A stretch of 22,439 bases of DNA, taken from a virus. The stretch covers positions 1 through 22,439 of the IMG/VR virus record IMGVR_UViG_3300027788_000097; one strand, 5' to 3'. A program made the translations under genes and the position numbers. Below the pieces are notes generated by a model. It had not been told where the DNA came from. It saw nothing but the letters and a program-made list of their open reading frames with translations, and did no database searches. Below, in pieces: positions 4,265 to 18,919 of the stretch (position 1 is its first letter; each line of letters starts with the position of its first letter).

Positions 4265-4270
4265 CTATAA

Positions 4271-4360
4271 GTTGTTGATTCTATTCACTTTTTTAGAACT
4301 TGTTCTTGTACCCTGATAATGCTATAATGGTTGTAAGTTGAGAGAGAAACCAAAGGGAAT
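4271..4360 (+). promoter_or_regulatory. Promoter cassette copy 1 (upstream box + sigma70-type core + leader)
   Basis: The gap before the gene at 4361 holds TTGATTCTA at 4275-4283, a -35 hexamer TTGTTC at 4300-4305, a 17-nt spacer and a perfect -10 TATAAT at 4323-4328. A conserved leader follows (GTTGAGAGAGAAACC) and the ribosome-binding site AAAGGGA. The distance from the upstream box to the -35 (25 nt, start to start) is identical in all five full copies. It probably drives early transcription by host RNA polymerase, with the upstream box as a possible activator or repressor site. Confidence 0.85.
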
Positions 4361-4621
4361 ATGAAGATGAACAAAAATGAACAGATAGTCCTCCAAGCGT
4401 GTATCGATAACCAAAACGAAAACGGTGGAGACTTCGGTTTCGGTAATGAAGTTGCACCGATGGTCGAGTCGCTGTCAGTGAACCAAGTCGCTGGGTATCT
4501 TTCAGCACTCCAGTCAAAGTCTTACATCTACGTTGATGGTGTTGTTGTTGAGGGAAAACTCTGTGGACAGTTCGTCGTGATGCGTGCTGCTGTCGATGCA
4601 CTAGCATTCGCAAGTGCTTGA
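4361..4621 (+). CDS. Hypothetical protein, 86 aa, possible winged-helix-like fold
   Basis: An 86-residue protein directly downstream of promoter cassette 1 with ribosome-binding site AAAGGGA and start ATG 4361. The pattern helix (NEQIVLQACIDNQ), helix (LSVNQVAGYLSALQSK) and strand pair (YIYVDGVVVEGKLCGQFVV) could be a small winged helix, which would suggest DNA binding, but the match is weak. Its TGA stop lies inside the TTGATTCTA box of promoter cassette 2, so cassette and gene end are fused. Confidence 0.7.
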   Translation: MKMNKNEQIVLQACIDNQNENGGDFGFGNEVAPMVESLSVNQVAGYLSALQSKSYIYVDGVVVEGKLCGQFVVMRAAVDALAFASA

Positions 4622-4707
4622 TTCTATTCACTTTTTTAGAACTTGTCCTTGTACTCTGATTGCGCGATAATGGTAACAGTTGAGAGAGAAACCAAGAGGA
4701 ATATGAA
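4617..4707 (+). promoter_or_regulatory. Promoter cassette copy 2
   Basis: The box TTGATTCTA is at 4618-4626, -35 TTGTCC at 4643-4648 and -10 GATAAT at 4666-4671, with a 17-nt spacer. The stretch ATTCTATTCACTTTTTTAGA is identical to copy 1, and the leader repeats TTGAGAGAGAAACCAA and a GAGGAATATGAA start region. The first ATG after it (4703) is followed at once by TGA, so ATG 4708 is used. It serves the small genes at 4708 and 4815 and probably those coupled downstream. Confidence 0.85.
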
Positions 4708-4812
4708 ATGAAAGACCTACTAATTGACCTGAAATATCACGCTATCATTGTTGTTGTACTTGCCAGCGTGCTTGTACCACTATACCTCATCGCTGTCGCA
4801 AAAGGAATATAG
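4708..4812 (+). CDS. Tiny membrane protein, 34 aa
   Basis: A 34-residue ORF starting MKDLLIDLKYHA, followed by one hydrophobic helix (IIVVVLASVLVPLYLIAVA) and KGI. It lies directly under promoter cassette 2 with an AGAGGA ribosome-binding site, which makes it very likely to be expressed despite its size. It predicts a single-span membrane peptide. The next gene starts three bases after its stop. Confidence 0.65.
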   Translation: MKDLLIDLKYHAIIVVVLASVLVPLYLIAVAKGI

Positions 4813-4814
4813 AA

Positions 4815-5012
4815 ATGCCTGAATATAAGATTACATATCATGACAACTTTGGTATCAAGTTGTCTACTATAGTGGGTGCCACTAATAGTCATGCAGCAAT
4901 CGAGTATGCTCGTGAGATGTTCGACGACCTCCGCATGATCTTGGATGTAGAAGCAGTCACTTCTATGACATTGGGTTCAAACGGAGAGGCACTCGTAAAT
5001 GGAAAAATGTAG
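4815..5012 (+). CDS. Hypothetical protein, 65 aa
   Basis: A 65-residue protein of alternating strand and helix: YKITYHDNFGIKLSTIVGAT, then SHAAIEYAREMFDDL, then a C-terminal strand. The order strand-strand-helix-strand with 'SHAAIEYA' recalls small phage proteins built to modify or imitate a partner surface, but no family is named. ATG 4815 follows AAAGGAATA, which serves as ribosome-binding site. The last 14 bases overlap the next gene. Confidence 0.65.
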   Translation: MPEYKITYHDNFGIKLSTIVGATNSHAAIEYAREMFDDLRMILDVEAVTSMTLGSNGEALVNGKM

Positions 5013-5571
5013 CATCACCAAGACTGGGCGATTAGGCAAAACAGATATGAGGAAGATCGATCGGGACGAAGGCATTTCCCGAATCGCCAAGGTGGGCAAG
5101 ATTGAATTGTTTGCATGTTACATTGGTCGTGAGATGTTTGTGTCGGGATATATCCGAGACAACAGCGGCAACAAAGGCGATATGGTTATCTCATTGACCC
5201 TCGAGGAAGAGTACGGTGACTTTGAGCGCAGACAGTTCTACTCAGTCACCATGGTTGAGATTTGTCGACAATACAGCGGGTATGGACTGGCACCGAAGTT
5301 GTACCGCGCATTGATGCGAGCAACAGGCATCAATATCATTTCTGGATCCATCCAGTCGCGTGGTGGGCAGTCTATATGGAACGGGATGTTCGACACCAAA
5401 GGTATTCGACTGATGGCATATCGCCACACCGAGAGAAAACCACGCTGTTTGCGTGACGTCACGTTCAATGAGTTTCAAGAAGAACTCAACGCAGATGACG
5501 ATTTGGTCAACATCTGGAGCGATTCAGAATACAACAACTGGCGACTCGTCGCTGAATATACAGGAGCATAG
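4999..5571 (+). CDS. GNAT-like acetyltransferase fold protein, 190 aa
   Basis: A 190-residue protein. The central part (about 78-120) reads FYSVTMVEICRQYSGYGLAP followed by KLYRALMR, which resembles GNAT motif A: a beta-strand carrying the substrate/cofactor site, then the (Q/R)xxGxG/A acetyl-CoA loop (here RQYSGYGLA), then a helix. A strand plus an aromatic/Asn segment (SIQSRGGQSIWNGM) follows, as in motif B. GNAT enzymes transfer acetyl groups from acetyl-CoA to amines. The target is unknown and loss of activity cannot be excluded. The start at ATG 4999 overlaps the previous gene by 14 bases. Confidence 0.6.
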   Translation: MEKCSITKTGRLGKTDMRKIDRDEGISRIAKVGKIELFACYIGREMFVSGYIRDNSGNKGDMVISLTLEEEYGDFERRQFYSVTMVEICRQYSGYGLAPKLYRALMRATGINIISGSIQSRGGQSIWNGMFDTKGIRLMAYRHTERKPRCLRDVTFNEFQEELNADDDLVNIWSDSEYNNWRLVAEYTGA

Positions 5572-5572
5572 C

Positions 5573-5812
5573 ATGGCAGGAATCACACGATACAAGATCA
5601 CGAAGACCACCACAGCGATTCAGTTTGTGGATGTCGATACAGACAACGATGACGTCAACGTGTTCTCCACTTCGGATGACCACTGGGTGGTCATGGAAGA
5701 AAAGAAGCAGACTGAATTCTATCAGCAGTACGATAGCATTGAGGAAGCACGTGGACTACTGATGCACACCGACAACGCAAAGAACAAAGCAGAATATGGA
5801 GGCACCATATGA
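5573..5812 (+). CDS. Hypothetical protein, 79 aa
   Basis: A 79-residue acidic protein beginning MAGITRYKITKTTT. I start it at ATG 5573, one base after the stop of the previous gene and preceded by CAGGAG; the upstream in-frame ATG (5453) would add 40 residues inside the previous gene. The sequence includes VDVDTDNDDVNVFS and HWVVMEEKKQTEFYQQYDS, suggesting a small beta-sheet with a helix. The stop overlaps the next start (ATGA). No function is recognised. Confidence 0.65.
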   Translation: MAGITRYKITKTTTAIQFVDVDTDNDDVNVFSTSDDHWVVMEEKKQTEFYQQYDSIEEARGLLMHTDNAKNKAEYGGTI

Positions 5813-6003
5813 AAGATCAGGTTATATATCTGATGCAACAGCGAGTTGGTGATGCTCAATGGCAGAACCTCTACTATACAACGGGCATGGATTGGCAACG
5901 TGCAGACGAATGGTCAAAGGTATGCCCACGGTCTATCTCGGTTGATGGGTTTCCCGTCTATCGTCGACTGGTCTCTCTTCCACCGATGGTCTGGTTCGAC
6001 TAA
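5809..6003 (+). CDS. Hypothetical protein, 64 aa
   Basis: A 64-residue protein rich in Trp and Tyr (QWQNLYYTTGMDWQRADEW), with a C-terminal FPVYRRLVSLPPMVWFD. It begins at ATG 5809 in an ATGA overlap with the upstream gene. The aromatic pattern suggests a small interaction domain. I do not know the family. About 50 bp of non-coding sequence follow before the next gene. Confidence 0.6.
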   Translation: MKDQVIYLMQQRVGDAQWQNLYYTTGMDWQRADEWSKVCPRSISVDGFPVYRRLVSLPPMVWFD

Positions 6004-6053
6004 TGAATGATATACAGTAATGTGAAAGAAATTTTTGAAGAGGAAGGTTTGAT

Positions 6054-6323
6054 ATGATCAAGAAAGAACATTGGAGTATCCTCGAGGCACGAGTCTTTGG
6101 GGGTCAACATGGTGACATCGAAGCACGTGGTTATATCGTTTCCGATGGTCCAGAACAGATATGGTTATTTTGGTATGATGAGCGAGTTGAAGAGATGCAG
6201 TACAACCTTCTCCAGCAAGTAGAGAAGGAAGATGATAAATACCTCTCATTCTTCTTTGATTATGATTATCTCCAAGTCGAGGTTTTGCCCACACCAACAA
6301 ACACATACAGGAAGAGAGCATAA
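6054..6323 (+). CDS. Hypothetical protein, 89 aa
   Basis: An 89-residue acidic protein starting MIKKEHWSILEARVFGGQHG. GAGGAAGG at 6039-6046 is a good ribosome-binding site and supports ATG 6054. The core alternates strands (IWLFWYDERVEEMQYNLL, LSFFFDYDYLQVEVLP). It ends in a TAATG overlap with the next small gene. No catalytic motif is apparent. Confidence 0.7.
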   Translation: MIKKEHWSILEARVFGGQHGDIEARGYIVSDGPEQIWLFWYDERVEEMQYNLLQQVEKEDDKYLSFFFDYDYLQVEVLPTPTNTYRKRA

Positions 6324-6436
6324 TGAATCTCGACTTCTTGGGAACTACATTGCTGACAATTGGCATTTTTGTAATTCTTTCCCCGATACTTGGGTGGATA
6401 TTTCTATTTTCTGCAATTACACTAGGTCTAATATAA
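6323..6436 (+). CDS. Tiny membrane protein, 37 aa
   Basis: A 37-residue hydrophobic ORF (MNLDFLGTTLLTIGIFVILS, then PILGWIFLFSAITLGLI). ATG 6323 shares TAATG with the preceding stop and its own TAA shares TAATG with the next ATG. Because it is coupled at both ends, it is likely translated even though short. It predicts one long or two short membrane helices. Confidence 0.65.
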   Translation: MNLDFLGTTLLTIGIFVILSPILGWIFLFSAITLGLI

Positions 6437-6753
6437 TGCCAATGTATGGTTCGATGAGACACTCGCCTTGTGGTCGTAAGATCAAGAAGAAAGCGGCAAA
6501 GGGCGAGACATTCAAGAAATACACCCCACCATCCGAGTTTGTAGCAGACGACTCTTGTGGTGGTGGGTATCGTAGAGGCGATACATCACAGTACAAGTCT
6601 GCTGACTCAGAGCAGCGTGGGGTGTGTAGTGCACCAGAGAAACATGCGTACACAGGTACACTGATCAAGGGTATCAGTTGTATGCACAAGAGCAATGCAG
6701 TTCCAGTCTTGAATAATCAAGAAATAATAGACATAGCGAGGATGCGAAGATGA
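6436..6753 (+). CDS. Conserved hypothetical protein, 105 aa
   Basis: A 105-residue basic protein from ATG 6436 (MPMYGSMRHSPCGRKIKKKA), coupled to the small membrane gene by TAATG. It has an internal CGGGYRRGD segment and a C-terminal SNAVPVLNNQEIIDIARMRR. The SNAVPV...IDIARMRR ending is a pattern I recall from hypothetical proteins of marine T4-type phages. Three of its cysteines (CG, CGGG, VCSA) might bind metal, but spacing does not fit a known zinc finger. The stop overlaps the dCMP deaminase start. Confidence 0.65.
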   Translation: MPMYGSMRHSPCGRKIKKKAAKGETFKKYTPPSEFVADDSCGGGYRRGDTSQYKSADSEQRGVCSAPEKHAYTGTLIKGISCMHKSNAVPVLNNQEIIDIARMRR

Positions 6754-7220
6754 AGATGAAGAAGGAAGTTTGCCGAGCGTATATGGATACAGCGCGAAAC
6801 TTTGCGCAATGCTCCACTGCCAAACGGTTGAAGGTTGGCGCGATCATTGTCGACCCGAGCACAGGAGCAATCGTTTCTGTTGGGTACAACGGAATGCCTG
6901 CTGGACTGTCTAACGTCTGCGAGAGTAAGGTGGACGGTGAGTCGAAGACCAAGGAGGAAGTCCTCCATGCTGAGGAGAATGCCATCTGTAAGATGGCACG
7001 AAGTAGTTCTTCCAGTGAAGGAACCTGGATGTTCGTGACACACTCTCCCTGCATCAAGTGTGCTCGCCTGATTGCAGCAAGCGGTATTGCTCGAGTGTTC
7101 TACTCCGAACGATTCAAAGGGCGAATTGGTTGCGGGTTGGAACTGCTGTCTAAATGTGGTGTCAAGACAATATATGTCAAACCATATCCAGAAGATACTA
7201 ATTGCCGTAGAACTAAATAG
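6750..7220 (+). CDS. Deoxycytidylate (dCMP) deaminase, 156 aa
   Basis: A member of the zinc-dependent cytidine/deoxycytidylate deaminase family. The catalytic signature is complete: HAEENAI at residues 73-79 (zinc-ligand His73, proton-shuttling Glu75) and PCIKC at 100-104 (zinc ligands Cys101 and Cys104). VGAIIVDP and SVGYNGMPAG (residues 29-52) are typical of the dCMP subfamily. The enzyme converts dCMP to dUMP, feeding thymidylate synthesis during phage replication, as T4 gene cd does. At 156 residues the length is normal. The start ATG 6750 overlaps the preceding stop (ATGA); ATG 6756 is a possible alternative. Confidence 0.93.
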   Translation: MKMKKEVCRAYMDTARNFAQCSTAKRLKVGAIIVDPSTGAIVSVGYNGMPAGLSNVCESKVDGESKTKEEVLHAEENAICKMARSSSSSEGTWMFVTHSPCIKCARLIAASGIARVFYSERFKGRIGCGLELLSKCGVKTIYVKPYPEDTNCRRTK

Positions 7221-7260
7221 AACCAATAGAATAAAATGAATTACTATTGCAGAGGATGTT

Positions 7261-7608
7261 ATGAAGGAAAGAGTTGAAGATTTACACCCAGCGGTGTTGC
7301 AGTGCGTGGATGAACTATCTACCTATTTAAAACAGGATGCAATGGCACAACACGATAGCAACGACCTGATGGTGTTTATGTGGACATTTGAACATAAAGG
7401 CGATCCAGTACAAATCCATATGATCAAGACGCAGAATGGTGGATATGCTCTTGCTGCTGCAGACTTTGGACAAGACGGGGTTCTGGCAAAGTCATGGACA
7501 CGCAGCAATGGTGGGAAGTGGAAAGGAGCGAAGAGAATTGTTTGCCAAACACAGAATCTGCCGAACATATATGTTGGACAAGATGGTGTTGACGACTTAA
7601 TATATTGA
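7261..7608 (+). CDS. Hypothetical protein, 115 aa
   Basis: A 115-residue protein with a helical N-terminus (VEDLHPAVLQCVDELSTYLK), then a beta-rich portion (LMVFMWTFEHKGDPVQIHMI, YALAAADFG). AGAGGA shortly before ATG 7261 is the likely ribosome-binding site. The gene stands 40 bp from the deaminase and just upstream of the left direct repeat of the sulfotransferase insertion. No motif gives a function. Confidence 0.7.
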   Translation: MKERVEDLHPAVLQCVDELSTYLKQDAMAQHDSNDLMVFMWTFEHKGDPVQIHMIKTQNGGYALAAADFGQDGVLAKSWTRSNGGKWKGAKRIVCQTQNLPNIYVGQDGVDDLIY

Positions 7609-7624
7609 GGTAGAATTAGAGTAC

Positions 7625-7649
7625 GAATAAAGCGAAGCAGTTTAAAGTA
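7625..7649 (+). repeat. 25-bp direct repeat, left copy (remnant of a gene start)
   Basis: This 25-bp segment beginning GAATAAAGCG is identical to 8273-8297, where it encodes the start of the nuclease gene. Here the three bases corresponding to the ATG read ACG (7623-7625), so it looks like a dead gene start left by duplication. The two copies flank the sulfotransferase-like gene exactly, 648 bp apart start to start. Confidence 0.9.
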
Positions 7650-7651
7650 AA

Positions 7652-8278
7652 ATGATTTATACTAATCAATGGGCATTCTTGCATATTCCAAAAAATGGTG
7701 GATACAACTTTAGGGAAAGAGCATTGCAGTCTCGACACATCATAGTCAGAGGTCAGCAGTATACTCCAAAATACAGAGAAGATCTACCCAATCAATTTCC
7801 CCACTGGCACCAACCTATATCATATCACATAGAGCACATCCCGCATCTTAAAAATTTGCAGTGGATATGCATAGTTCGCCACCCAGAAGATCGTTTGGCA
7901 AGTTGGTATTATTTTATAAAGACAAGGCACGAACCAATATTTAAAATGAATTTTCCATATGGCATTTCCTTTGAAGAGTTTGTTGTTGAAAATCGGATTA
8001 AAGATTTTATAGCGGATAAAGATTTTGATGCAGAGGAAGGATTGTGGAGAGTTGGAGATTTACAATCTAAGTGGTTAAATGTTCCTGATGGAGTCAACCT
8101 TGCTCATTATCGTTTGGAAGACCAACTTGGTGAGTTAGAATCTTATGTGGGGTTTAAGTTTTCTGACACAAAACATAATTATACAAATAGACCGAAAGAT
8201 TCACATTACACAGATGAAATGAAACAGATAACATACATCAATTATCAAGAGGATTACGAGAGATTTGGATATGAATAA
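7652..8278 (+). CDS. Sulfotransferase-like protein, 208 aa (inserted gene)
   Basis: A 208-residue protein with the two PAPS-binding signatures of sulfotransferases. The 5'-phosphosulfate loop is FLHIPKNGGYNF (residues 9-20; compare hxHIPKtGGtS). The 3'-phosphate motif is IVRHPEDRLASWYYF (74-88; compare RdPxxRxxSxYxy). The C-terminal YINYQEDYERFGYE matches the 'DyxxFgY' ending of the membrane/carbohydrate type (Sulfotransfer_2-like). It would move sulfate from PAPS to a sugar or other hydroxyl. The gene is visibly AT-richer than its neighbours, lacks a strong ribosome-binding site, sits between perfect direct repeats and gets its stop codon from the right repeat, all signs of recent insertion. 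Confidence 0.85.
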   Translation: MIYTNQWAFLHIPKNGGYNFRERALQSRHIIVRGQQYTPKYREDLPNQFPHWHQPISYHIEHIPHLKNLQWICIVRHPEDRLASWYYFIKTRHEPIFKMNFPYGISFEEFVVENRIKDFIADKDFDAEEGLWRVGDLQSKWLNVPDGVNLAHYRLEDQLGELESYVGFKFSDTKHNYTNRPKDSHYTDEMKQITYINYQEDYERFGYE

Positions 8279-9014
8279 AGCGAAGCAGTTTAAAGTAGAT
8301 CTTGTTGATCTCCCGAAAATAAAGAGAGTCAATATTGAAGGCAAACGCCACTATGTGCGAGCAGATGGATTGATCGCTGTCCCGTATCCATCAGTGACGA
8401 CCATAACATCCTCCTGTAAGAAGTTACAGGCAGGACTCCATGCTTGGCGGCGAAGGGTAGGTGCGGAAGAGGCGCAGCGAGTTTCTACTGCTGCTTCTAC
8501 ACGAGGCACATCTGTTCACCAACTCATCGAGGACTACTGCCAGAACGATGGCATTGTTGTCGAAGAAACTTCTCTTGGCAGGAAACTGCCAGAAGGTGTT
8601 ATGCCTGACTCATATGACATGTTCAGTCGTCTGCGCGATGTTGCAAATAAGTCCATTGATAACATCCGTGTTGTGGAAGGACTCATGTACTCTGACCATC
8701 TGCGAACAGCAGGCACGGTTGATATGGTTGCTGAGTTTGATGGCGTATTGTCTGTCATCGACTGGAAGACCTCGAACAAAAGAAAGACTCGTTCTATGAT
8801 ATATAATTACTTTAAGCAGGAAGCAGCATATGCTGTCATGTACGAAGAAATGACTGGAGTACCAGTGACACAATTAGTAACAGTCATCACTTCTTCAGAG
8901 GGAGACTCACAGGTGTTCATCGAGCACCGTGATGAATGGATTGGTGGGTTCCAAGAACTAAGGGATGCGTATGAAGAAAAGCACGGGAGTAAAGAGAATG
9001 TCTTGGAACTATAG
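8271..9014 (+). CDS. RecB-family PD-(D/E)XK nuclease, 247 aa
   Basis: A Cas4/RecB-like single-strand or exonuclease-type protein. Motifs in order: SVTTIT near residue 41; RGTSVHQLIE (79-88) with the conserved His83; VVEGLMYS (134-141) with Glu136; GTVDM (148-152) with Asp151; VIDWKTSNK (162-170) carrying the D-x-K of the catalytic site; QEAAYAVMY (183-191) with the trailing Gln-Tyr motif. The family cuts DNA ends in recombination, repair or host-DNA breakdown. ATG 8271 is preferred over TTG 8265. It starts inside the right 25-bp repeat and overlaps the end of the sulfotransferase gene. Confidence 0.88.
   Translation: MNKAKQFKVDLVDLPKIKRVNIEGKRHYVRADGLIAVPYPSVTTITSSCKKLQAGLHAWRRRVGAEEAQRVSTAASTRGTSVHQLIEDYCQNDGIVVEETSLGRKLPEGVMPDSYDMFSRLRDVANKSIDNIRVVEGLMYSDHLRTAGTVDMVAEFDGVLSVIDWKTSNKRKTRSMIYNYFKQEAAYAVMYEEMTGVPVTQLVTVITSSEGDSQVFIEHRDEWIGGFQELRDAYEEKHGSKENVLEL
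8273..8297 (+). repeat. 25-bp direct repeat, right copy (in the nuclease start)
   Basis: Identical to 7625-7649. It contains codons 2-9 of the nuclease gene (NKAKQFKV) and also supplies the TAA stop (8276-8278) of the sulfotransferase gene. The identity stops abruptly on both sides (C versus T upstream, A versus G downstream), as expected of a duplication made at an insertion junction. Confidence 0.9.
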
Positions 9015-9240
9015 AGTAACATTCAGACCCACGAGCGCGGATCGTGGATATGAGATCCGTGAGGTGTACTACAACGAGGATGGAGAAATCTCCCTATACA
9101 GTGTAGACCCTGCTACTGCATTTGGCGACTCAACTGACGAACTCGAAGTGAACATGAACCTCATGGTTGATGCGTTCAACTCTGATGTGGTCAACCTTGA
9201 CAATGTCGACTATCAGCATCGAAAAATAAATCTAGAATAA
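8998..9240 (+). CDS. Hypothetical protein, 80 aa
   Basis: An 80-residue acidic protein beginning MSWNYRVTFRPTSADRGYEI. Its sequence (YEIREVYYNEDGEISLYSVD, then DELEVNMNLMVDAFN) is a pattern I recall in short phage proteins: two or three strands followed by a helix. ATG 8998 is preceded by GGGAGTAAAGAGA and overlaps the nuclease gene by 17 bases. The upstream in-frame start at 8965 would lie entirely in the nuclease. The gene ends just before a hairpin facing the opposite strand. Function unknown. Confidence 0.7.
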   Translation: MSWNYRVTFRPTSADRGYEIREVYYNEDGEISLYSVDPATAFGDSTDELEVNMNLMVDAFNSDVVNLDNVDYQHRKINLE

Positions 9241-9265
9241 AAAAATGCACCCATTGCGGGTGCAT
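9241..9265 (-). terminator. Intrinsic terminator for the minus-strand gene
   Basis: An 8-bp perfect stem (ATGCACCC at 9245-9252 with GGGTGCAT at 9258-9265) closes a 5-nt loop. Read on the minus strand it is followed by a run of T (complement of the A-run at 9238-9245), the form of a rho-independent terminator. There is no T-run on the plus-strand side, so rightward transcripts are probably not stopped here. Confidence 0.8.
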
Positions 9266-9288
9266 AGCGTTGAAAAAAATGTACCATT

Positions 9289-9681
9289 CTATTGGTTAAT
9301 CTCATCCACATCTTCTTCTAGTGTCGACGCTCGTTCTTCCAAACGCCCCAACCTATCATGTATTATAAAACCCAAGTCCCTTATGTGTCCCGCGTGATCT
9401 GTTACGCGCAACTCGATGGTGGCATGAGAATCTTTAACATGTCTCAGTTGAAGATCGACATAGTTCATGATACCAAATACTGCTGTTCCCATGACCCCCA
9501 AGAGACCTACAATTCCAGAGATGATGGGCATCATGTTGGTCTTGGTTGAACCGTTGAGCAGGTGCTCTTCAATTCGATCAATGTTTCCAACAACTTGCCT
9601 CATATCCTGTTCTGTGTGTTTTAGTCTCCCCTCGTGAGTATACAGTTTTGTTTCGACTTCAGAAATCCTTTCGTCGTTCAT
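9289..9681 (-). CDS. Coiled-coil membrane protein, 130 aa, only minus-strand gene
   Basis: A 130-residue protein with an N-terminal helix (about 4-42, ERISEVETKLYTHEGRLKH), one membrane span (about 51-74, MPIISGIVGLLGVMGTAVFG) and a second charged helix (about 80-128, ending LEERASTLEEDVDEI). The consensus-strength ribosome-binding site AGGAGGT lies six bases before the ATG at 9681 and decides the start over the in-frame ATG at 9711. The helix-span-helix form loosely recalls XhlA-type or superinfection-exclusion proteins. Its lone orientation, own terminator and strong ribosome-binding site suggest independent control. Confidence 0.8.
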   Translation of the reverse strand: MNDERISEVETKLYTHEGRLKHTEQDMRQVVGNIDRIEEHLLNGSTKTNMMPIISGIVGLLGVMGTAVFGIMNYVDLQLRHVKDSHATIELRVTDHAGHIRDLGFIIHDRLGRLEERASTLEEDVDEINQ

Positions 9682-9746
9682 GAATACACCTCCTTTCTGA
9701 GATAATATCACAAATCAATGTTGTAACTTGCTGCCACTTCATACCT

Positions 9747-9791
9747 CTATTTATGCATATCATCCTGTAATATGACATATTCGCATAAATA
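9747..9791. promoter_or_regulatory. Divergent late-promoter-like boxes (CATAAATA on both strands)
   Basis: The gap between divergent genes has CATAAATAG on the minus strand (complement of 9747-9755) and CATAAATA on the plus strand (9784-9791). Each is one base from the T4 late box TATAAATA and lies 48-67 bases from the start of the gene it faces. Marine T4-type phages tolerate variation at the first base, so these may be late promoters for 9289-9681 and 9840-10175. This is weaker evidence than the exact boxes elsewhere. Confidence 0.4.
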
Positions 9792-9839
9792 TACAGAGAA
9801 ACCGTGGTTGTGGACATGTTGAGAAGAAAGGAAACAGAT

Positions 9840-10175
9840 ATGTATAAGTGTATAGCAGGACTGTTAGTATTGGCATCCCTCGGTGGGTGTGCTACTGGAC
9901 AACCAAAGCAGAAAGCAGATTTCGACAAGACTGGTGTGGAGATGTCCATCACTGTTATCGCATATGAGCATATGCCCGAACTGCTCGATGTTTACAACTG
10001 TACCCGCGCATCATCTTACCAGTATCCACATGGTGAGACGATTGACGGTTTTGCTGTCTTCTCGCAGAAAGGTCTGGTCTGTACTATCCACGTGTATAAG
10101 GCACCGATGTCAAACGAGTACAATAACTATCTTGGTCACGAGATGCGACACTGTCTCGAGGGCAACTGGCACTAA
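9840..10175 (+). CDS. Lipoprotein with HExxH motif, 111 aa
   Basis: A 111-residue protein with a clear lipoprotein signal: MYKCIAGLLVLASLGGC, with the lipobox LGGC putting the modified Cys at residue 17. The mature part ends in YLGHEMRHCLEGNWH (about 97-111). HEMRH fits the HExxH zinc-binding motif of metallopeptidases, followed by a Glu and a His that could be further ligands. The protein is very small for a protease. It would sit in the outer or inner membrane facing the periplasm. ATG 9840 follows AAAGGA; the upstream in-frame ATG 9804 would spoil the signal peptide. Its TAA directly abuts promoter cassette 3. Confidence 0.75.
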   Translation: MYKCIAGLLVLASLGGCATGQPKQKADFDKTGVEMSITVIAYEHMPELLDVYNCTRASSYQYPHGETIDGFAVFSQKGLVCTIHVYKAPMSNEYNNYLGHEMRHCLEGNWH

Positions 10176-10269
10176 GTTGTTGATTCTACAGGGTATTTGA
10201 GACTTTGTCTTTGTACCCTGATTGCGGGATAATATATTCTGAATTGAGTGAAACAGGAAGGAAGTAGAT
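10176..10269 (+). promoter_or_regulatory. Promoter cassette copy 3
   Basis: Directly after the TAA of the lipoprotein gene: GTTGTTGATTCTAC, with the TTGATTCTA box at 10180-10188. The -35 TTGTCT is at 10205-10210, with a 17-nt spacer to -10 GATAAT at 10228-10233. The leader carries GAATTGAGTGAAAC and the ribosome-binding site AGGAAGGAAG before ATG 10270. Box-to-core spacing is the same as in the other full copies. Confidence 0.85.
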
Positions 10270-10596
10270 ATGTGTGATATAGAAGCAGGCAAGGCAAGAG
10301 TCAAAGAAATACTGGAAAGTGACTATGCACGGTGGTCCACAGATTCATACGGCAAGGCATATGAAGACTGCCACAACAGATACACTATTATCTTCAAAGA
10401 TGGTCGAAACTACATCAAAGTCATTCGGAGCGAGGGAATCCGCGAGTCAGTTGTTGGGTTCATCGTGAGGAAAGAGACCAAAGGATTCAAGGTCGGTGAC
10501 ATCCTCAAGGCAGCGTCTTGGCATGCTCCAGCACTGAACTTTGCTCGGGGTCACGTTGATGATCAAGAATTGAAATTATCATGGGCAGGGATCTAA
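10270..10596 (+). CDS. Conserved hypothetical protein, 108 aa
   Basis: A 108-residue protein under promoter cassette 3. The N-terminal half is helical and then a beta portion (YTIIFKDGRNYIKVI, ESVVGFIV) leads to FKVGDILKAASWHAPALNFA followed by RG. The GDILKAAxWxxPAxNxARG pattern is one I recall from T4-type phages of marine bacteria, whose role is unknown. AGGAAGGAAG upstream fixes ATG 10270. The HNH gene follows directly. Confidence 0.75.
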   Translation: MCDIEAGKARVKEILESDYARWSTDSYGKAYEDCHNRYTIIFKDGRNYIKVIRSEGIRESVVGFIVRKETKGFKVGDILKAASWHAPALNFARGHVDDQELKLSWAGI

Positions 10597-10598
10597 TT

Positions 10599-11075
10599 AT
10601 GACATACAAAACAGTCAATGACTGCCGAACAGTCCGATACAACAACGAGTCCTTCCCCGATTATGTCATGTGCGGTGAGGGTAATGTCTACAACAAGAAG
10701 ACGGGGAGGATGTTGAGACCCAACTATCGTTCCAAAGGTGGTAAGAATCCAGCGTATCCAACCCTCGGTTTGATGCAAACTATTGTCAACCCCCACTCGA
10801 GGATAGGTGGCACAATGAGGAAAACTCGCACAATCTTGGTGCATATTGCAGTTTGTGATACATTCAACAGAGACTCGATGCCCATACCAGATGGCGTAAC
10901 TGAGAAAGAGTGGAAGCGCACCCCAGCGTCGGTCAAAAAACAAATGAGATTTGCATTTCAGGTGAATCACAAAGATCACGACCAGCACAACCACCACCCA
11001 AGCAACCTGGAATACACGACTGCGAAACAGAATCAGGCAGCATACCAAGCGCACAAGAATAAGAAAACTGCGTAA
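10599..11075 (+). CDS. HNH endonuclease (NUMOD4/HNH type), 158 aa
   Basis: A homing-type endonuclease. The N-terminal part (FPDYVMCGEGNVYNKKTGRM, about residues 18-37) is the NUMOD4-like 'YxVSxxGxVyn..tgr.l' module. A linker with ILVHIAVCDTF ('v..lva.aFi') follows, then the HNH core VNHKDHDQHNHHPSNLEYTT (about 126-145) and KQNQ, in which NHKDxxxxNxxxxNLE(Y/W) is the canonical pattern. Such enzymes make a site-specific cut that spreads their gene, though free-standing copies may lack activity. I start at ATG 10599, three bases after the previous stop with a GGCAGGGA site, rather than ATG 10581. Copies 3 and 4 of the promoter cassette flank this gene and 10270-10596. Confidence 0.88.
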   Translation: MTYKTVNDCRTVRYNNESFPDYVMCGEGNVYNKKTGRMLRPNYRSKGGKNPAYPTLGLMQTIVNPHSRIGGTMRKTRTILVHIAVCDTFNRDSMPIPDGVTEKEWKRTPASVKKQMRFAFQVNHKDHDQHNHHPSNLEYTTAKQNQAAYQAHKNKKTA

Positions 11076-11169
11076 GTTGTTGATTCTACTCAGGTTCTAG
11101 GAACTTGTCCTTGTACCTTGATTGTGCGATAATATAGTCTGAGTTGAGTGAAACGAGAAGGAAGTAGAT
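11076..11169 (+). promoter_or_regulatory. Promoter cassette copy 4
   Basis: Begins immediately after the HNH stop codon with the same GTTGTTGATTCTAC as copy 3. The box TTGATTCTA is at 11080-11088, -35 TTGTCC at 11105-11110, spacer 17 nt, and -10 GATAAT at 11128-11133. The leader GAGTTGAGTGAAAC and GAAGGAAGTAGATATG matches copy 3 closely. It drives the gene at 11170 and probably the following two. Confidence 0.85.
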
Positions 11170-11451
11170 ATGAGCATTACAATTGAACAGTTGCAAGAAC
11201 GTAGTGAAGCACGCAATCCCGCTCAGTGGGACTGGCGTCTGCTGGACGCAGAAGCAGCATATGCTGGGAACTCACCAGTTCTCAACACAAAATTCAGACG
11301 CACTGTTATAAGTAGTAACAGGAGTTTCTCAAACCTGTGCAGGAATAGACTGCGCAATAAAATGAAGCAGCGTCGCGCTGCACAACGCACGTGGAGTGGT
11401 GCCTATGCACTGCCCACTCATCTTAAATACCTAAAATTGGGAGGACTGTAA
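11170..11451 (+). CDS. Hypothetical basic protein, 93 aa
   Basis: A 93-residue, strongly basic protein (SNLCRNRLRNKMKQRRAAQR at about 54-73) with an N-terminal helix (ITIEQLQERSEARNPAQWDW). The Arg-rich middle suggests nucleic-acid or nucleoprotein contact. AGAAGGAAG before ATG 11170, in cassette 4, supports the start. No family is recognised. The next gene begins two bases after its stop. Confidence 0.7.
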   Translation: MSITIEQLQERSEARNPAQWDWRLLDAEAAYAGNSPVLNTKFRRTVISSNRSFSNLCRNRLRNKMKQRRAAQRTWSGAYALPTHLKYLKLGGL

Positions 11452-11452
11452 A

Positions 11453-11827
11453 ATGAGTCCAAGCATGAATAAGCGAAACACATCGATCACTCTTTGTGGT
11501 GCACTACTGGGAATGTCAATATTCCTGAGTTGTGATGCGCAAGCAGAGCAGACAATGACTATCACAATACCAATGGGGACTAAAATAGTCGAGACTGAAT
11601 CTTCTTGGTGTGAACCAGTCTACAACGAATCGCAGAATTCGTTGTATGTTCCACGCTGCTGGAGATTGAAACAAGAACCAGCACCACCGAATGCCCTCGA
11701 GCGTATAATCAGTCGTGCTACGAAAGACACCGCTCAGACCATAGAGAACCAACTCAGTAACGCTGCAGAACGTCAGATCTACGATATGGGTCAATCTATG
11801 CAGAACTGGTTAGGAACGGACAAGTAG
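11453..11827 (+). CDS. Exported (periplasmic) protein, 124 aa
   Basis: A 124-residue protein with an N-terminal signal peptide: a basic start (MSPSMNKRNTS), a hydrophobic core (ITLCGALLGMSIFLS) and a likely signal-peptidase I site after AQA (about residue 31). The mature protein has two Cys (SSWCEPVYN, VPRCWRL) that could form a disulfide, a Pro-rich turn and a C-terminal helical region (TKDTAQTIENQLSNAAERQI). It is probably periplasmic; a spanin-like, lysis or cell-wall role is only a guess. It precedes the putative peptidase gene. Confidence 0.7.
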   Translation: MSPSMNKRNTSITLCGALLGMSIFLSCDAQAEQTMTITIPMGTKIVETESSWCEPVYNESQNSLYVPRCWRLKQEPAPPNALERIISRATKDTAQTIENQLSNAAERQIYDMGQSMQNWLGTDK

Positions 11828-11835
11828 ACTGTCTC

Positions 11836-12282
11836 ATGCAAATTGACTTTTGCAGTAGAACACCTCTCTATTTGGAGAGGTTTACTTTCTTTGCTGCCAA
11901 GCAGTTAGGACTGGCCAAACTCCGTGGTGAGATACACCTGTCATATTATCCGACTCTCGAGAACGACAGTTATGGATTGTGCTGGGGCGATGGCAAGGAA
12001 GCAGAAATTCATATTGCATCGAAGATGTCAGACCGCAAGGTCAGCAAGATTGATAAGATGAAGACCGTGGCGCACGAACTCGCCCACGCAAGGCAGTTTC
12101 TACGAAGAGAATTGTGCTTGGGTGGAGGAGATGATGAGTGCAACTGGCATGGCAGGTTGTTCAGGTATGACCCGCAAAACGAATCAGAAGCACCTTGGGA
12201 AGTCGAGGCAGTATCAGTAGAGCAACCCATATATGACGCATGGTTGACTTATATTTGGCAACAGCGCATGGGCATTGTATAA
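11836..12282 (+). CDS. Putative zinc metallopeptidase (HExxH), 148 aa
   Basis: A 148-residue protein whose core is KTVAHELAHARQFLRR (residues about 76-91). HELAH fits the gluzincin-type HExxH motif: two His zinc ligands and the catalytic Glu. Downstream, PWEVEAVSVEQPI (about 120-132) could supply the third Glu ligand, as in SprT-like and related small phage peptidases. No signal peptide is present, so it acts in the cytoplasm or virion. Its stop overlaps the late promoter at 12278-12285. No clear ribosome-binding site precedes ATG 11836. Confidence 0.72.
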   Translation: MQIDFCSRTPLYLERFTFFAAKQLGLAKLRGEIHLSYYPTLENDSYGLCWGDGKEAEIHIASKMSDRKVSKIDKMKTVAHELAHARQFLRRELCLGGGDDECNWHGRLFRYDPQNESEAPWEVEAVSVEQPIYDAWLTYIWQQRMGIV

Positions 12283-12286
12283 ATAG
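12278..12286 (+). promoter_or_regulatory. T4-type late promoter (TATAAATAG)
   Basis: An exact TATAAATA octamer, the core of T4-type late promoters (recognised by gp55-class sigma with sliding-clamp activation), 21 bases before ATG 12307. GAGGAG at 12295-12300 lies between predicted transcription start and ATG. It overlaps the TAA of the upstream gene. It marks the start of late expression in this window. Confidence 0.82.
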
Positions 12287-12306
12287 ACCTATCACGAGGA
12301 GTATAC

Positions 12307-13587
12307 ATGCCAGCATTCAAAGAAAGAGACGACCTGAAGATCCAATTGGACAGCAAGTGCGGGTATAAGGACTTCAAAGACCAAACAAGGAAAGGATTGG
12401 TCGTTCTCATACCAAAGGGTGGCGACAGGATCGCTACTCTTGAGACCATAGCGAAGAAGTTGAAGAGTTATGGAGGAAAGTATGACCCGAACGGTGGCAG
12501 TTCATCAGTAGGCAGAACAGTCTTCACTGGTGGTTTCTTTGCCGAGTGCAAGATCAAAGGTGGTGGTGGTAGTGGCGCAGGTTCAGACCTGACCGCATTG
12601 ACTGAATCCGCTCAGTGCGTCTATAGCGCAGCACTGTATAACAACAAGAAGTATACCCACGCAGACCTCAAAGCAGTCAAGAATTTCTACATCATCGATG
12701 ACAAGATTCAGAGTGTACTGACCAAGTTGCCTGATGATTGGATCGAGTCCTCCAAAATAATTGCAGCGAAACTCAAGAAAGAATTTCCAGCAAGTGGTAA
12801 GAACTATGTACACCACCGTGGTTCTCCGTGGGTCAACAAACTCGAGCAGCACTGGAAGAAACTCAATCAGGATGCTGGCAAACCATTCTCCAACCTCAAC
12901 AAATGGTCACCTGCTGATACATGGATGATCTCGTCCAAGGGTAAGCAGATTGACATAACAAAGACAAAGACATTGGTTGAGTTGAACAACCTGCTGGCGA
13001 AGAACCTCAAGAGCAAAGATATAGTTGGAGTGTCCCTGAAGAAAGCGGTGGGCACGGTGTCGTTCAAATTGTTGAACACCTCAAAGAACCGTCCCGTGTA
13101 TGCATTCGAAAAGGCGGCGATCATTGGTAAGTCTGGGTTCTTTGGTTCGGGCGATTGCTATCTGATATTCGACGGTGGCAAGGCACAGTTCAGAAAGTTT
13201 GGATCGACATGGCAGGGTGAGTTGAAAGGTAAGAACGCCAACATGGGTAAGATGTCAGGTGGGCCAGTCAAAGCACTGCTTGATAATATAACAGGCGACA
13301 ACTTTATACCACAGCGCGATCTTTTGGAACGCGACGAAGAGACGATTGATCTATTCTACAAATGGTACAATGCCTGCAAAGATACACCGAAGATGAAGAA
13401 GTATGACTTCTATGCGGAAGTGGCGAAGAAAGATCAAAACTGGTTCGTTTCGAAGATACTATGCACCCAATTAGTTTCTGTGGTGGAGTCGATGTCAAAG
13501 AAAGACCAAGACCGTTTCACCTCGGGCATGGTCAACTACGCTGGATCTGAGTCCGAGTTGTCTGGACCGTACTGCAAGGTGTATTGA
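12307..13587 (+). CDS. Late-expressed protein with possible restriction-enzyme-like core, 426 aa
   Basis: A 426-residue, basic protein under a consensus late promoter. Recognisable pieces: a glycine-rich stretch leading to GAGSDLTALTESAQCVYSAA (about 91-109), KWSPADTWMISS (199-210), LVELNNLLAKN (223-233) and DIVGVSLKKA (238-247), then a beta-rich C-terminal half with FEKAAIIGKSGFFGSG. The PAD(T/I)W ... ELN ... VGVSLKK order recalls conserved marine-myophage proteins and, distantly, the D...xSxK site of PD-(D/E)XK enzymes; activity is unproven. Late timing and no membrane segment suggest a virion or packaged protein. It ends near the structured element at 13631-13750. Confidence 0.7.
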   Translation: MPAFKERDDLKIQLDSKCGYKDFKDQTRKGLVVLIPKGGDRIATLETIAKKLKSYGGKYDPNGGSSSVGRTVFTGGFFAECKIKGGGGSGAGSDLTALTESAQCVYSAALYNNKKYTHADLKAVKNFYIIDDKIQSVLTKLPDDWIESSKIIAAKLKKEFPASGKNYVHHRGSPWVNKLEQHWKKLNQDAGKPFSNLNKWSPADTWMISSKGKQIDITKTKTLVELNNLLAKNLKSKDIVGVSLKKAVGTVSFKLLNTSKNRPVYAFEKAAIIGKSGFFGSGDCYLIFDGGKAQFRKFGSTWQGELKGKNANMGKMSGGPVKALLDNITGDNFIPQRDLLERDEETIDLFYKWYNACKDTPKMKKYDFYAEVAKKDQNWFVSKILCTQLVSVVESMSKKDQDRFTSGMVNYAGSESELSGPYCKVY

Positions 13588-13590
13588 TAA

Positions 13591-13612
13591 CCTCTTGATT
13601 CCATTCAGGTTT
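13591..13612 (+). repeat. Truncated promoter-cassette upstream box (copy 5, incomplete)
   Basis: CTCTTGATTCCATTCAGG here matches the upstream part of the cassette (TTGATTCTATTCA with one change), directly after the stop of the 426-aa gene. At the position where the -35 would be expected (13620) the sequence is TCTCCT, so no promoter core remains. The adjacent GC-rich element begins here. It looks like a cassette whose core was lost or replaced. Confidence 0.7.
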
Positions 13613-13630
13613 CCCTATTTCTCCTCATTT

Positions 13631-13747
13631 CTCCTCTCGGGAGGCGCGAGGAGGACGCGAGAGAGCGTTTCGAGGGTCACAGATACGCTGGGGAAGGGAC
13701 TCGAAGGAGTCCTCTCGAGGGCGCGAGAGAGCGTCTCTCGCCTCCTA
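13631..13747 (+). ncRNA. Candidate structured RNA or DNA element, GC-rich
   Basis: This segment, unlike its surroundings, is GC-rich and full of CGAGAGAG-type words. By hand it folds as: P1 GGAGG 13640-13644 with CCTCC 13741-13745; P2 CGAGgAGGAC 13647-13656 with GTCCTCTCG 13709-13717 (one bulged G); P3 TTCGAG 13669-13674 with CTCGAA 13700-13705; P4 CGAGAGA 13724-13730 with TCTCTCG 13734-13740 (loop GCG). All can coexist, giving a branched fold. CGCGAGAGAGCGT occurs twice (13656-13668, 13722-13734), so alternative pairings exist. It lacks a terminator T-run. It may be a regulatory RNA, a recombination site or an inserted repeat; expression is unproven. A 52-codon open frame crosses it but lacks a ribosome-binding site. 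Confidence 0.5.
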
Positions 13748-13750
13748 CCG

Positions 13751-13831
13751 TAAGTCATTGATTCTATTAGGTTTATTGGAACTTGCTTTTGGACCTCAAT
13801 TGAGCGATAATATAGTCTGAATTGAGGAGAA
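13751..13831 (+). promoter_or_regulatory. Promoter cassette copy 6 (fifth full copy)
   Basis: TTGATTCTA at 13758-13766 is followed 25 nt later (start to start) by -35 TTGCTT at 13783-13788, then a 17-nt spacer and -10 GATAAT at 13806-13811. The leader has TATAGTCTGAATTGAGGAGA and AAATGAATATG, with GAGGAGA as ribosome-binding site. TAAG precedes the box, as in the cassettes that abut gene ends, though no confident gene ends here. It drives the gene at 13832. Confidence 0.85.
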
Positions 13832-14044
13832 ATGAATATGTTGAACCTGAAAGAAATTAGCAACCAAGAACTTGCCACTATGCGCGATAACGCATATGAA
13901 GCAGAAATGCGAACGCGGAATATGCGGTGGATGCACGACACTAAAGCGTCAGTGTCTAGGCGAAGCACATCAGTCTCGCAAGAGGTATGTCGCAGACTGG
14001 TTGAAGGTACGATAGAATTTGATGATAATGGAGAATTGAAATGA
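13832..14044 (+). CDS. Hypothetical protein, 70 aa
   Basis: A 70-residue helical protein from ATG 13832 (MNMLNLKEISNQELATMRDN), with a basic middle (RTRNMRWMHDTKASVSRRST) and an acidic end. The NQELATMRDNAYEAEM stretch looks like an amphipathic helix. It is the first gene of cassette 6, and its stop overlaps the next start (ATGA). I do not recognise it. Confidence 0.65.
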   Translation: MNMLNLKEISNQELATMRDNAYEAEMRTRNMRWMHDTKASVSRRSTSVSQEVCRRLVEGTIEFDDNGELK

Positions 14045-16842: not shown

Positions 16843-18919
16843 ACAAACCTTGAATGTGGGAACTGTTGCCAACGATGGCACAGGAGACACTCTGCGCGCA
16901 GCAGCAGGAAAAATTAACTCCAACATGGATAACCTTTGGACAGCAGTTTATGATGGAACTGTTTTTTCTCGCACCGACAGGGTTAAACATATCATACCAT
17001 TTCCGACGACACTACTTTTTGGCGTCATCGCTATGGGGAACACGTCGGACATCAACACATTTATGTTAACGTTGGATCTCACCTTGGCCGAAGACCATGT
17101 TGTAGATCTCGGCGGACACACTTATGGTTGTGACGAGACAATAAACTTGACCAATCTCGATGGGATTCGATTTACTAATGGAGTGTTTACTCGAGGAAAC
17201 GGCAATCCTAACCTGGTTGGTTCTCCCCTCACATATTGGCCAGTGTTCGAGTTGACGAACTGCACGAGATGCTCCTTCGACAACATGGAGATGAAAGACG
17301 ATAGAGTTGAAGTAGCGGTGAACTTTTTCGATGGACTTTCTTATGATGGACACTTCAGTGTTACACCTAATCCGACGATTCGCGCAGATTTCGAAGTGCC
17401 ACTGGACCCTGTGAAATTTGCTCGTAATGGAGTACCAACAGCATTTATGAAGTTGACAAACAGCAACGATATCACTTTAGATAACTGCAGGATGTTAGAT
17501 ATTGTCTATGGTGTTATTGCAGCTGGGTCCGAGAAACAAAGAAGAATCGACATAAGAAACTGTACCTTCTCTACTTCGTCGGGAATAACCGATGGGAAAA
17601 TGGGTGATGCAGTTTATGGAAATGGTTTGCTTGACGATTGTACATTTACAAACAATTCGGTCAAAAACGCAATGAGCGCAGTAAATACAGGAAGTGTTGG
17701 TAATAGATGGAATGTTTCAAACAATCTTATCGAGAATACAATAAACTCCGCCGTATTTTTGAGGGGAAAGGGTCATGTTGTAACAGGCAATACTATCACA
17801 TATTCTGGGAGGGACGGTATCGAGGTACAGACAGATCCCACCCCTTGGTTCGGGAAAGTGGGAATTGACTCCGACGAAGGATCTTCTAGCATAACAGGAA
17901 ACGTGGTCAAATTTGCTGGGTATTATCAAGAGGGAGGGGGGATGTGCATACGTTCTTATGGGGCAAATAATATAGTTAGTACGAACTTCTGTGAGATCGA
18001 CAGTGCTGCTAACATGAATGTGACTTCGCTCGCCGCTGGTGTTTCTATCGCTGGAAGAAACACTATTGTTTCCTCAAATAGTATTGTTGGTCCATATGCC
18101 TTCCCCAATACGAAAGCATCAATTGCGGGTAATAGTTATTATGGAATACGTCTTGCCTCAAGTGAAACCTGGAGGGGAAACAAGTGTATAATCGGTTCCA
18201 ATAATATTAGGAACGTAACATCGGGAATCACTGCTATAGGAGCGAGTGCAATAAACGAAGATCACACCCTATACAGTACACAAATATCAAACAACAGTAT
18301 TTCTGGTTCTAAGTGGGGGATTTACATAGTCCCAGAGGATAAAACCGGAGTATTTTCAGATTTCATGATCAAAGACAACATTATTGATAGTTGTGAAAGC
18401 ACGGGTATGTGGTTTAAGGGCAGCGGTCCAATTATTGTGGAAGGAAACTCTTTCAACAATATGAGCGACAAGATTATTAGGGTTGGTGGGGTAAATGATG
18501 TAGGGACTTTCAGGAATAATGTATGGGACGGGGAGACGCTGGACCCGACGACGGACCCGATATTAGTGGAAGTTTTAGCAACAGAATCGATCATAACAGA
18601 GTTAGGAAACTCATGGAATCCCAAAGAGTCCACGATTGTCAATGTAAGTACCCAAACAGCAGACTATAGTGCCAATGTTATTACAGACAGCACCATACTT
18701 GTCGATGCTACAATCGCAGCAGTAACGATTACTCTCCCGACTGCTGTTGGATATACTGGTAAGAACTTTCGAATCAAGAAAGTTGATAACACTGCCAACG
18801 CAGTCATTATAGACGCCGACGGTTCGGAAACTATTGATGGGGCGTTCCAAGTCACTATCAGTACACAATATGGTGTATCTGACATTGTTAGCGATGGAAC
18901 AAACTGGCATATTTGTTAA
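16832..18919 (+). CDS. Beta-helix tail protein (tailspike-like), 695 aa
   Basis: A 695-residue protein. The N-terminal segment (about 7-36) has LNVGTVANDGTGDTLRAA, a pattern shared by marine-phage tail proteins that anchor to the virion. Residues about 80-600 contain many Asn-, Ser- and Gly-rich repeats such as ITGNVVKF, CIIGSNNIRN, TQISNNSISG and FMIKDNIIDS, which form rungs of a right-handed parallel beta-helix (pectate-lyase-like). The C-terminal domain (about 615-695, ITLPTAVGYTGKNFRIKKVD) is a tail-fibre module I recall from phage proteins. It probably binds or degrades a surface polysaccharide; catalytic residues cannot be assigned by eye. AAAAGGAG precedes the start; no internal stop is present. 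Confidence 0.85.
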   Translation: MPDKQTLNVGTVANDGTGDTLRAAAGKINSNMDNLWTAVYDGTVFSRTDRVKHIIPFPTTLLFGVIAMGNTSDINTFMLTLDLTLAEDHVVDLGGHTYGCDETINLTNLDGIRFTNGVFTRGNGNPNLVGSPLTYWPVFELTNCTRCSFDNMEMKDDRVEVAVNFFDGLSYDGHFSVTPNPTIRADFEVPLDPVKFARNGVPTAFMKLTNSNDITLDNCRMLDIVYGVIAAGSEKQRRIDIRNCTFSTSSGITDGKMGDAVYGNGLLDDCTFTNNSVKNAMSAVNTGSVGNRWNVSNNLIENTINSAVFLRGKGHVVTGNTITYSGRDGIEVQTDPTPWFGKVGIDSDEGSSSITGNVVKFAGYYQEGGGMCIRSYGANNIVSTNFCEIDSAANMNVTSLAAGVSIAGRNTIVSSNSIVGPYAFPNTKASIAGNSYYGIRLASSETWRGNKCIIGSNNIRNVTSGITAIGASAINEDHTLYSTQISNNSISGSKWGIYIVPEDKTGVFSDFMIKDNIIDSCESTGMWFKGSGPIIVEGNSFNNMSDKIIRVGGVNDVGTFRNNVWDGETLDPTTDPILVEVLATESIITELGNSWNPKESTIVNVSTQTADYSANVITDSTILVDATIAAVTITLPTAVGYTGKNFRIKKVDNTANAVIIDADGSETIDGAFQVTISTQYGVSDIVSDGTNWHIC

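Follow-up and report, generated by a model that had tools for sequence, protein, structure and literature searches.

The virus DNA analysed here, a 22,439-base IMG/VR phage record (the window), carries five copies of a compact promoter cassette, which is likely to be a sigma70 early promoter with a phased site for host IHF serving as an architectural activator. The core would be a sigma70 promoter with a TTG -35, 17 nt and a KATAAT -10, and the IHF site would stand upstream on a fixed face of the helix; this candidate site covers about -67 to -41 and would comprise the box YAANNNNTTGATW, 8 nt and a T-tract. The box is the IHF consensus WATCARNNNNTTR reverse-complemented. IHF, which is abundant in host cells, introduces a bend of ~160 degrees at its site, and a strong IHF site has been defined as the consensus plus an A-tract (PMC8421141).

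The window has T4-type gene content, including genes for dCMP deaminase, an exonuclease, a DUF6267 protein, a cytidyltransferase and baseplate/tail proteins. Among named phages, megablast gave no DNA-level match to the window and blastn gave none to one cassette; by protein comparison, C48C1 (Kyanoviridae) comes nearest among them, with 65% for the DUF6267 protein. Neither a tRNA nor an Rfam match was found in the window, the latter result meaning that no known RNA element is present. A 154-kb relative, IMGVR_UViG_3300027833_000015 (G001), shows ~77-89% identity with the window over most long aligned blocks, and the window phage is considered T4-like because G001 encodes homologues of gp20, gp23, gp43, gp44, gp45, gp55, gp33, gp32, UvsX, uvsY and regA. 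By gp23, the nearest cultured kin of G001 with known hosts are Pelagibacter, Methylophilales and Stenotrophomonas phages; a host encoding IHF is presumed from these nearest cultured relatives, all of which have Pseudomonadota hosts. The relatives themselves and C48C1 are without the cassette, and no copy was found in C48C1, HTVC008M, Melnitz, DLP_6, P-SSM7, AAT-1, J2-1, Mallos, AMA1, PSTCR6 or lambda. Two bare matches to the pattern in C48C1 and another in P-SSM7 were left out of the cassette count.

An earlier note on this DNA had placed cassettes at box starts 4275, 4618, 10180, 11080 and 13758, and a search for TTGATTCTA followed by 16 nt and TTG returned exactly these, all on the + strand, with none elsewhere on either strand and 0 matches in the window to the reversed-pattern control. 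When a motif model of the five copies was run on the window as a weight matrix, as had been proposed, the copies scored 68-79 bits and the next best site -0.4. With one mismatch allowed, TTGATTCTA alone is near chance (13 found against 7.8 expected), while the compound cassette is not. The described distances (box to -35, 25 nt; -35 to -10, 17 nt) hold in all five copies, but the 25 nt is not exact in relatives, whose 72 cassettes have 25 nt in 60 cases, 24 in 10 and 26 in 2. Similarly, GATAAT was correctly given as the -10 of four copies, but the copy at 4275 has TATAAT in register, with its GATAAT 8 nt upstream and out of register. The box had been drawn too short in starting at TTGATTCTA: the conserved part extends 7 nt further upstream (TAAGTTG, TAAGTCA or CAAGTGC), and in relatives the final CTA varies most within the box.

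All features of the five cassettes lie on the + strand, and a small ORF with a ribosome-binding-type sequence starts 20-36 nt after each of them. In cassette 1, the IHF-type site TAAGTTGTTGATT (4268-4280), a full match to YAANNNNTTGATW, is followed 8 nt after its TTGATT by a T-run (4289-4294), as in lambda H', and by the core promoter (4300-4328; -35 TTGTTC at 4300-4305, 17 nt, -10 TATAAT at 4323-4328); its ORF of 86 aa (4361-4621) has no Pfam match. Cassette 2 has the IHF-type site CAAGTGCTTGATT (4611-4623), a T-tract (4632-4637) and a core promoter (4643-4671) with TTGTCC, 17 nt and GATAAT at 4666-4671, and is followed by a hydrophobic ORF of 34 aa (4708-4812), possibly a membrane peptide. 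The site TAAGTTGTTGATT recurs in cassette 3 (10173-10185), with TTGTCT, 17 nt and GATAAT (10228-10233) in the core promoter (10205-10233) and a 108-aa DUF7717 ORF (10270-10596), and in cassette 4 (11073-11085), where a core promoter (11105-11133) with TTGTCC, 17 nt and GATAAT (11128-11133) precedes a 93-aa ORF (11170-11451) with no Pfam match. Cassette 5 consists of the IHF-type site TAAGTCATTGATT (13751-13763) and a core promoter (13783-13811) with TTGCTT, 17 nt and GATAAT at 13806-13811, ahead of a 70-aa ORF (13832-14044), again with no Pfam match. The copies had been called intergenic, which is not strictly so, as the gene upstream stops at the box TAA in the copies at 10173 and 11073 (ORFs 9804-10175 and 10581-11075, respectively) and the box at 4618 includes the TGA stop of the ORF upstream. 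A sixth, promoter-less half-copy, consisting of the IHF-type site TAACCTCTTGATT followed by CCATTCAGGTTT (13588-13603, +), is kept in G001. From this half-cassette to cassette 5, the window (13590-13757) is GC-rich and repetitive, with GCGAGAGAGCG repeats.

The identity of the box was examined in 72 distinct cassettes from 19 contigs, which were collected by two variable-spacing pattern scans of IMG/VR and then by whole-record searches; the many single matches of the first loose patterns were left out as chance matches. A full match to YAANNNNTTGATW is present in 64 of the 72 and in all five window cassettes, and the remaining eight have one mismatch. YAA, TTGAT and W, in this order, are invariant, giving the forms TAAGTTGTTGATT, TAAGTCATTGATT, TAACCTATTGATT and CAAGTGCTTGATT; the first base is either T or C, both of which are within the degenerate consensus. 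The four middle "N" positions are the most variable, yet are confined to S-Y-Y-R, and the reader may therefore discriminate more than E. coli IHF is usually said to. After the box, T makes up 77-93% at +15 to +19 of the cassettes. The same pattern run on lambda (NC_001416) recovers H1, H2 and H'; H1 is TAAGTAGTTGATTC, with a single mismatch to the window box over 14 bases, and the T-run of H' lies at +14 to +19 from TTGATA, in the same place as the T-tract of the cassettes. The window has six perfect IHF-consensus sites, where 1.6 would be expected, and five of them fall within cassettes; in G001 it is 15 of 24. Rather than being a phage-specific motif, the box matches a host IHF binding site, and the same layout is found in many other viral contigs. 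IHF-type sites were also seen in other settings: a second relative (G003) has two of them in tandem, 28 nt apart, with no recognisable promoter (16895-16960), and a box-like TAAGTTATTGATTTTATT with a T-tract but no phased promoter stands upstream of the terminase small-subunit gene in Pseudomonas phage AAT-1 and near the genome end in Xanthomonas phage Mallos, where such sites are possibly IHF sites for packaging.

The spacing of the box is a matter of helical phase. IMG/VR was scanned with 4-34 nt allowed between the box and TTG-N20-KATAAT and with the -35/-10 distance fixed at 17 nt, and among the 221 unique matches listed the gap was 18-19 nt in 122, 28-29 nt in 41 and 23-26 nt in 5. These two peaks lie one helical turn apart and, among the matches listed, both persist after similar cassettes are clustered. 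For the TAAGT-type box, half-turn gaps of 22-26 nt gave 3 matches in the entire viral collection, about the number predicted by a reversed-box control, which returned 33 stretches in all over 31 gap lengths, flat and with no phasing. Among the matches listed, phased sites occur in 155 contigs belonging to 86 nucleotide groups, with a GC range of 26-55%, and 110 of these 155 contigs have C48C1-type (T4-like) proteins. The view that fixed spacing reflects protein-binding geometry, and not descent alone, is borne out by these unrelated contigs, which cluster one turn apart and leave the half-turn at background. The site is phased on the helix relative to -35 and -10, as expected of an IHF-activated sigma70 promoter. 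IHF boxes in the opposite orientation are also frequent in IMG/VR, where, in many viral contigs, they form gap clusters at 4-9, 16-18 and 26-28 nt ahead of TTGACA/TATAAT promoters; orientation is therefore not a strict requirement. In prokaryote genomes the 18-20 nt arrangement gave 4 seemingly unconnected matches in 257 Gb, so the layout looks like a virus trait.

These data bear on who reads the box. A phage-encoded activator, a functional equivalent of MotA, might read the -60 box, its likeness to an IHF site being convergent; this would fit a box that is tighter than the IHF consensus at the N positions and recurs inside a single phage clade, in the manner expected of a phage regulon. We consider it unlikely, given that no phage-encoded IHF/HU homologue (PF00216) was found in 13 phage records, that the same box and phasing recur across the nucleotide groups and GC range given above, among the matches listed, and that known host-IHF sites of lambda match the box. 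There is even less to recommend an ordinary strong sigma70 promoter that has an A/T-rich UP element, in which everything else would reflect common descent of duplicated cassettes. The T-tract at about -46 to -41 does occupy the proximal UP position and the copies are clearly homologous within the clade, but invariance is highest in YAA and TTGATT, at -67 to -55, and not in an A-tract, and common descent gives no reason to expect another peak exactly one helical turn off with the half-turn empty.

Under the favoured reading, activation through host IHF, the protein would already be in the cell before infection, and would bind the site and sharply bend the DNA at a fixed angle to RNA polymerase. 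The bend would wrap upstream DNA back onto the polymerase, at the alpha-CTD or the rear face, and so raise initiation from a promoter whose -35 (TTGTCY) is weak, a weakness that fits a need for help from IHF. In this way, dispersed small early genes could be switched on without a phage-made activator, and late genes would be served by the T4-type TATAAATA/gp55 class. IHF can activate or repress, and the site abuts the -35, so that IHF bound at -67 to -41 might conversely keep these promoters off until it is titrated or displaced. Such repression is improbable, as the weak -35 suggests a need for help and a steric block would not require one-turn phasing. That IHF binds, that it activates, that it does so through the alpha-CTD and that it acts early are steps we infer from these features. 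Natural variation in the gap already amounts to the half-turn displacement experiment, so the proposed activation by IHF is directly testable.

Early timing is suggested by gene context, as the genes driven by cassettes are mostly small and have no assigned function, which is typical of early accessory genes. G001 has 17 cassettes, all on one strand and in three zones (23-27 kb, 95 kb and 123-153 kb), of which the 95 kb zone lies directly ahead of gp33/gp32; none is found in the structural block at ~38-92 kb. The T4-type late promoter motif TATAAATA, in turn, occurs 17 times on the coding strand of G001 against 3.25 expected, through the structural block and beyond, and 4 times in the window against 0.55 expected, all on the coding strand (12278-12285, +; others at 15234, 18931 and 21267). 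With cassettes off the structural block and TATAAATA through it, the cassettes form a class distinct from T4-type late promoters, in keeping with the promoter class of their own that had been suggested; they have KATAAT with a -35, and the TATAAATA sites are a separate set.

The cassette might also act as a recombination patch that often gives the upstream gene its stop codon, which would make promoter-plus-gene modules swappable. Window cassette 4275 shares its left flank with G001 cassette 141807 and its body and right flank with G001 cassette 141222; the 585 bp that separate these two G001 cassettes (minus strand) are absent from the window. This missing module consists of one cassette and a 167-aa gene with an HD_4 domain (PF13328), whose product, with a SpoT/Mesh1-like fold, may act on ppGpp, and its gain or loss would be explained by one-step recombination between cassettes. 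In 48 of the 72 cassettes, an upstream frame of at least 40 codons ends at the TAA of the IHF site, and in 10 more it ends at the TGA of TTGAT; for two control frames in the same 72, the numbers open are 16 and 24. A role as stop codon could account in part for the conservation of the TAA, although CAA variants, and cassettes in which a stop comes earlier, speak against its being the whole cause. An IHF site that serves recombination, replication or packaging, with its position at a promoter secondary, is the least probable explanation of all, for although lambda attP carries IHF sites of the same form, look-alikes stand by the terminase small-subunit gene or genome end in AAT-1 and Mallos, cassettes lie at module boundaries and the half-copy at 13588 lacks a promoter, it gives no reason for helical phasing to -35 and -10, and 17 copies in the G001 genome are too many for origin or packaging sites.

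As an IHF-assisted promoter, the cassette has counterparts in other phages. In lambda pL, the IHF site lies at about -90. Like Mu Pe and lambda pL, the cassettes would have a host IHF site upstream of a phage sigma70 early promoter; each of those is one promoter with its own IHF distance, whereas the cassettes are multi-copy, have the site fixed at ~-60 and belong to T4-like phages. The lambda attP sites H1, H2 and H' share the consensus with the cassettes, and H' has its T-tract in the same register, but their role is in integration and excision, and no phased -35/-10 lies downstream of them. In sigma54 promoters such as Pu, an IHF bend lies at about -65, between the upstream DNA and the polymerase; these have a sigma54 core promoter and an enhancer-bound activator, neither of which was found in the cassettes. 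At Mu Pe, an IHF-aided phage early promoter, removing the Mu IHF site has been shown to lower transcription (PMC3820752).

Among the promoters of T4 itself, those of the middle class have a MotA box at -30 in place of a -35. The cassettes resemble them as phage promoters with an extra protein box, but keep the -35 TTG in 72 of 72 and have the box at -60; they differ from T4 late promoters, with TATAAATA at -10 and no -35, in having KATAAT with a -35. T4 PeSL elements, reportedly characterised by Arbiol and colleagues in 2010, are said to be mobile regulatory cassettes in which an early promoter is linked to a stem-loop terminator. The likeness to PeSL drawn in the earlier note holds for repeated promoter units ahead of small accessory genes and for the shuffling of modules between them, as with the 585-bp module, but not for a paired stem-loop terminator: no terminator-like site on the + strand adjoins the window cassettes, and the GC-rich fold before cassette 5 is strong, yet no stronger than shuffles (z -0.53). 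Since the stem-loop partner is absent, the cassettes are not PeSL elements by that criterion. T4 early promoters have been described as UP/-35 (GTTTAC)/TGn/-10, with no IHF site (PMC2988021; PMC1524935); the cassette -35 is TTGTCY and not GTTTAC, and an extended -10 TG was flagged in one of three window copies among the matches listed. T4-type early promoters have been characterised as strong sigma70 promoters that need no accessory factor, and IHF is absent from the text of a review of T4 prereplicative transcription (PMC2988021). Marine T4-like phages, the relative Melnitz among them, have been reported to be without identifiable middle promoters (PMC9004378).

In the literature searched, in which subscription journals are partly covered, no report of IHF at T4-like early promoters was found. 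IHF-assisted sigma70 promoters are already known, and what appears to be new is a multi-copy, helically phased cassette in T4-like phages. As the layout is common to many uncultured phages, part of their early programme may depend on a host architectural protein. A stronger version, which we put forward tentatively and think somewhat doubtful, is that a large uncultured T4-like group has much of its early programme under obligatory host-IHF control, with cassettes that are also recombination joints. Multi-copy promoters based on a host nucleoid protein would be another route of transcription takeover, would leave these phages dependent on IHF, and would provide a motif for early-gene calling in many unannotated contigs.

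Several other genes were noted in the window, including a 2OG-Fe(II) oxygenase (PF13759; 3507-4121), the dCMP deaminase (phrog_174; 6750-7220) and a sulfotransferase-like gene (7652-8278) with a weak PF03567 match below the cut-off. The last of these is flanked by the direct repeat GAATAAAGCGAAGCAGTTTAAAGTA (7624-8297), which takes in the 5' end of the exonuclease gene. G001 lacks the segment between the repeats, and the positions corresponding to window 7631 and 8283 nearly adjoin there.
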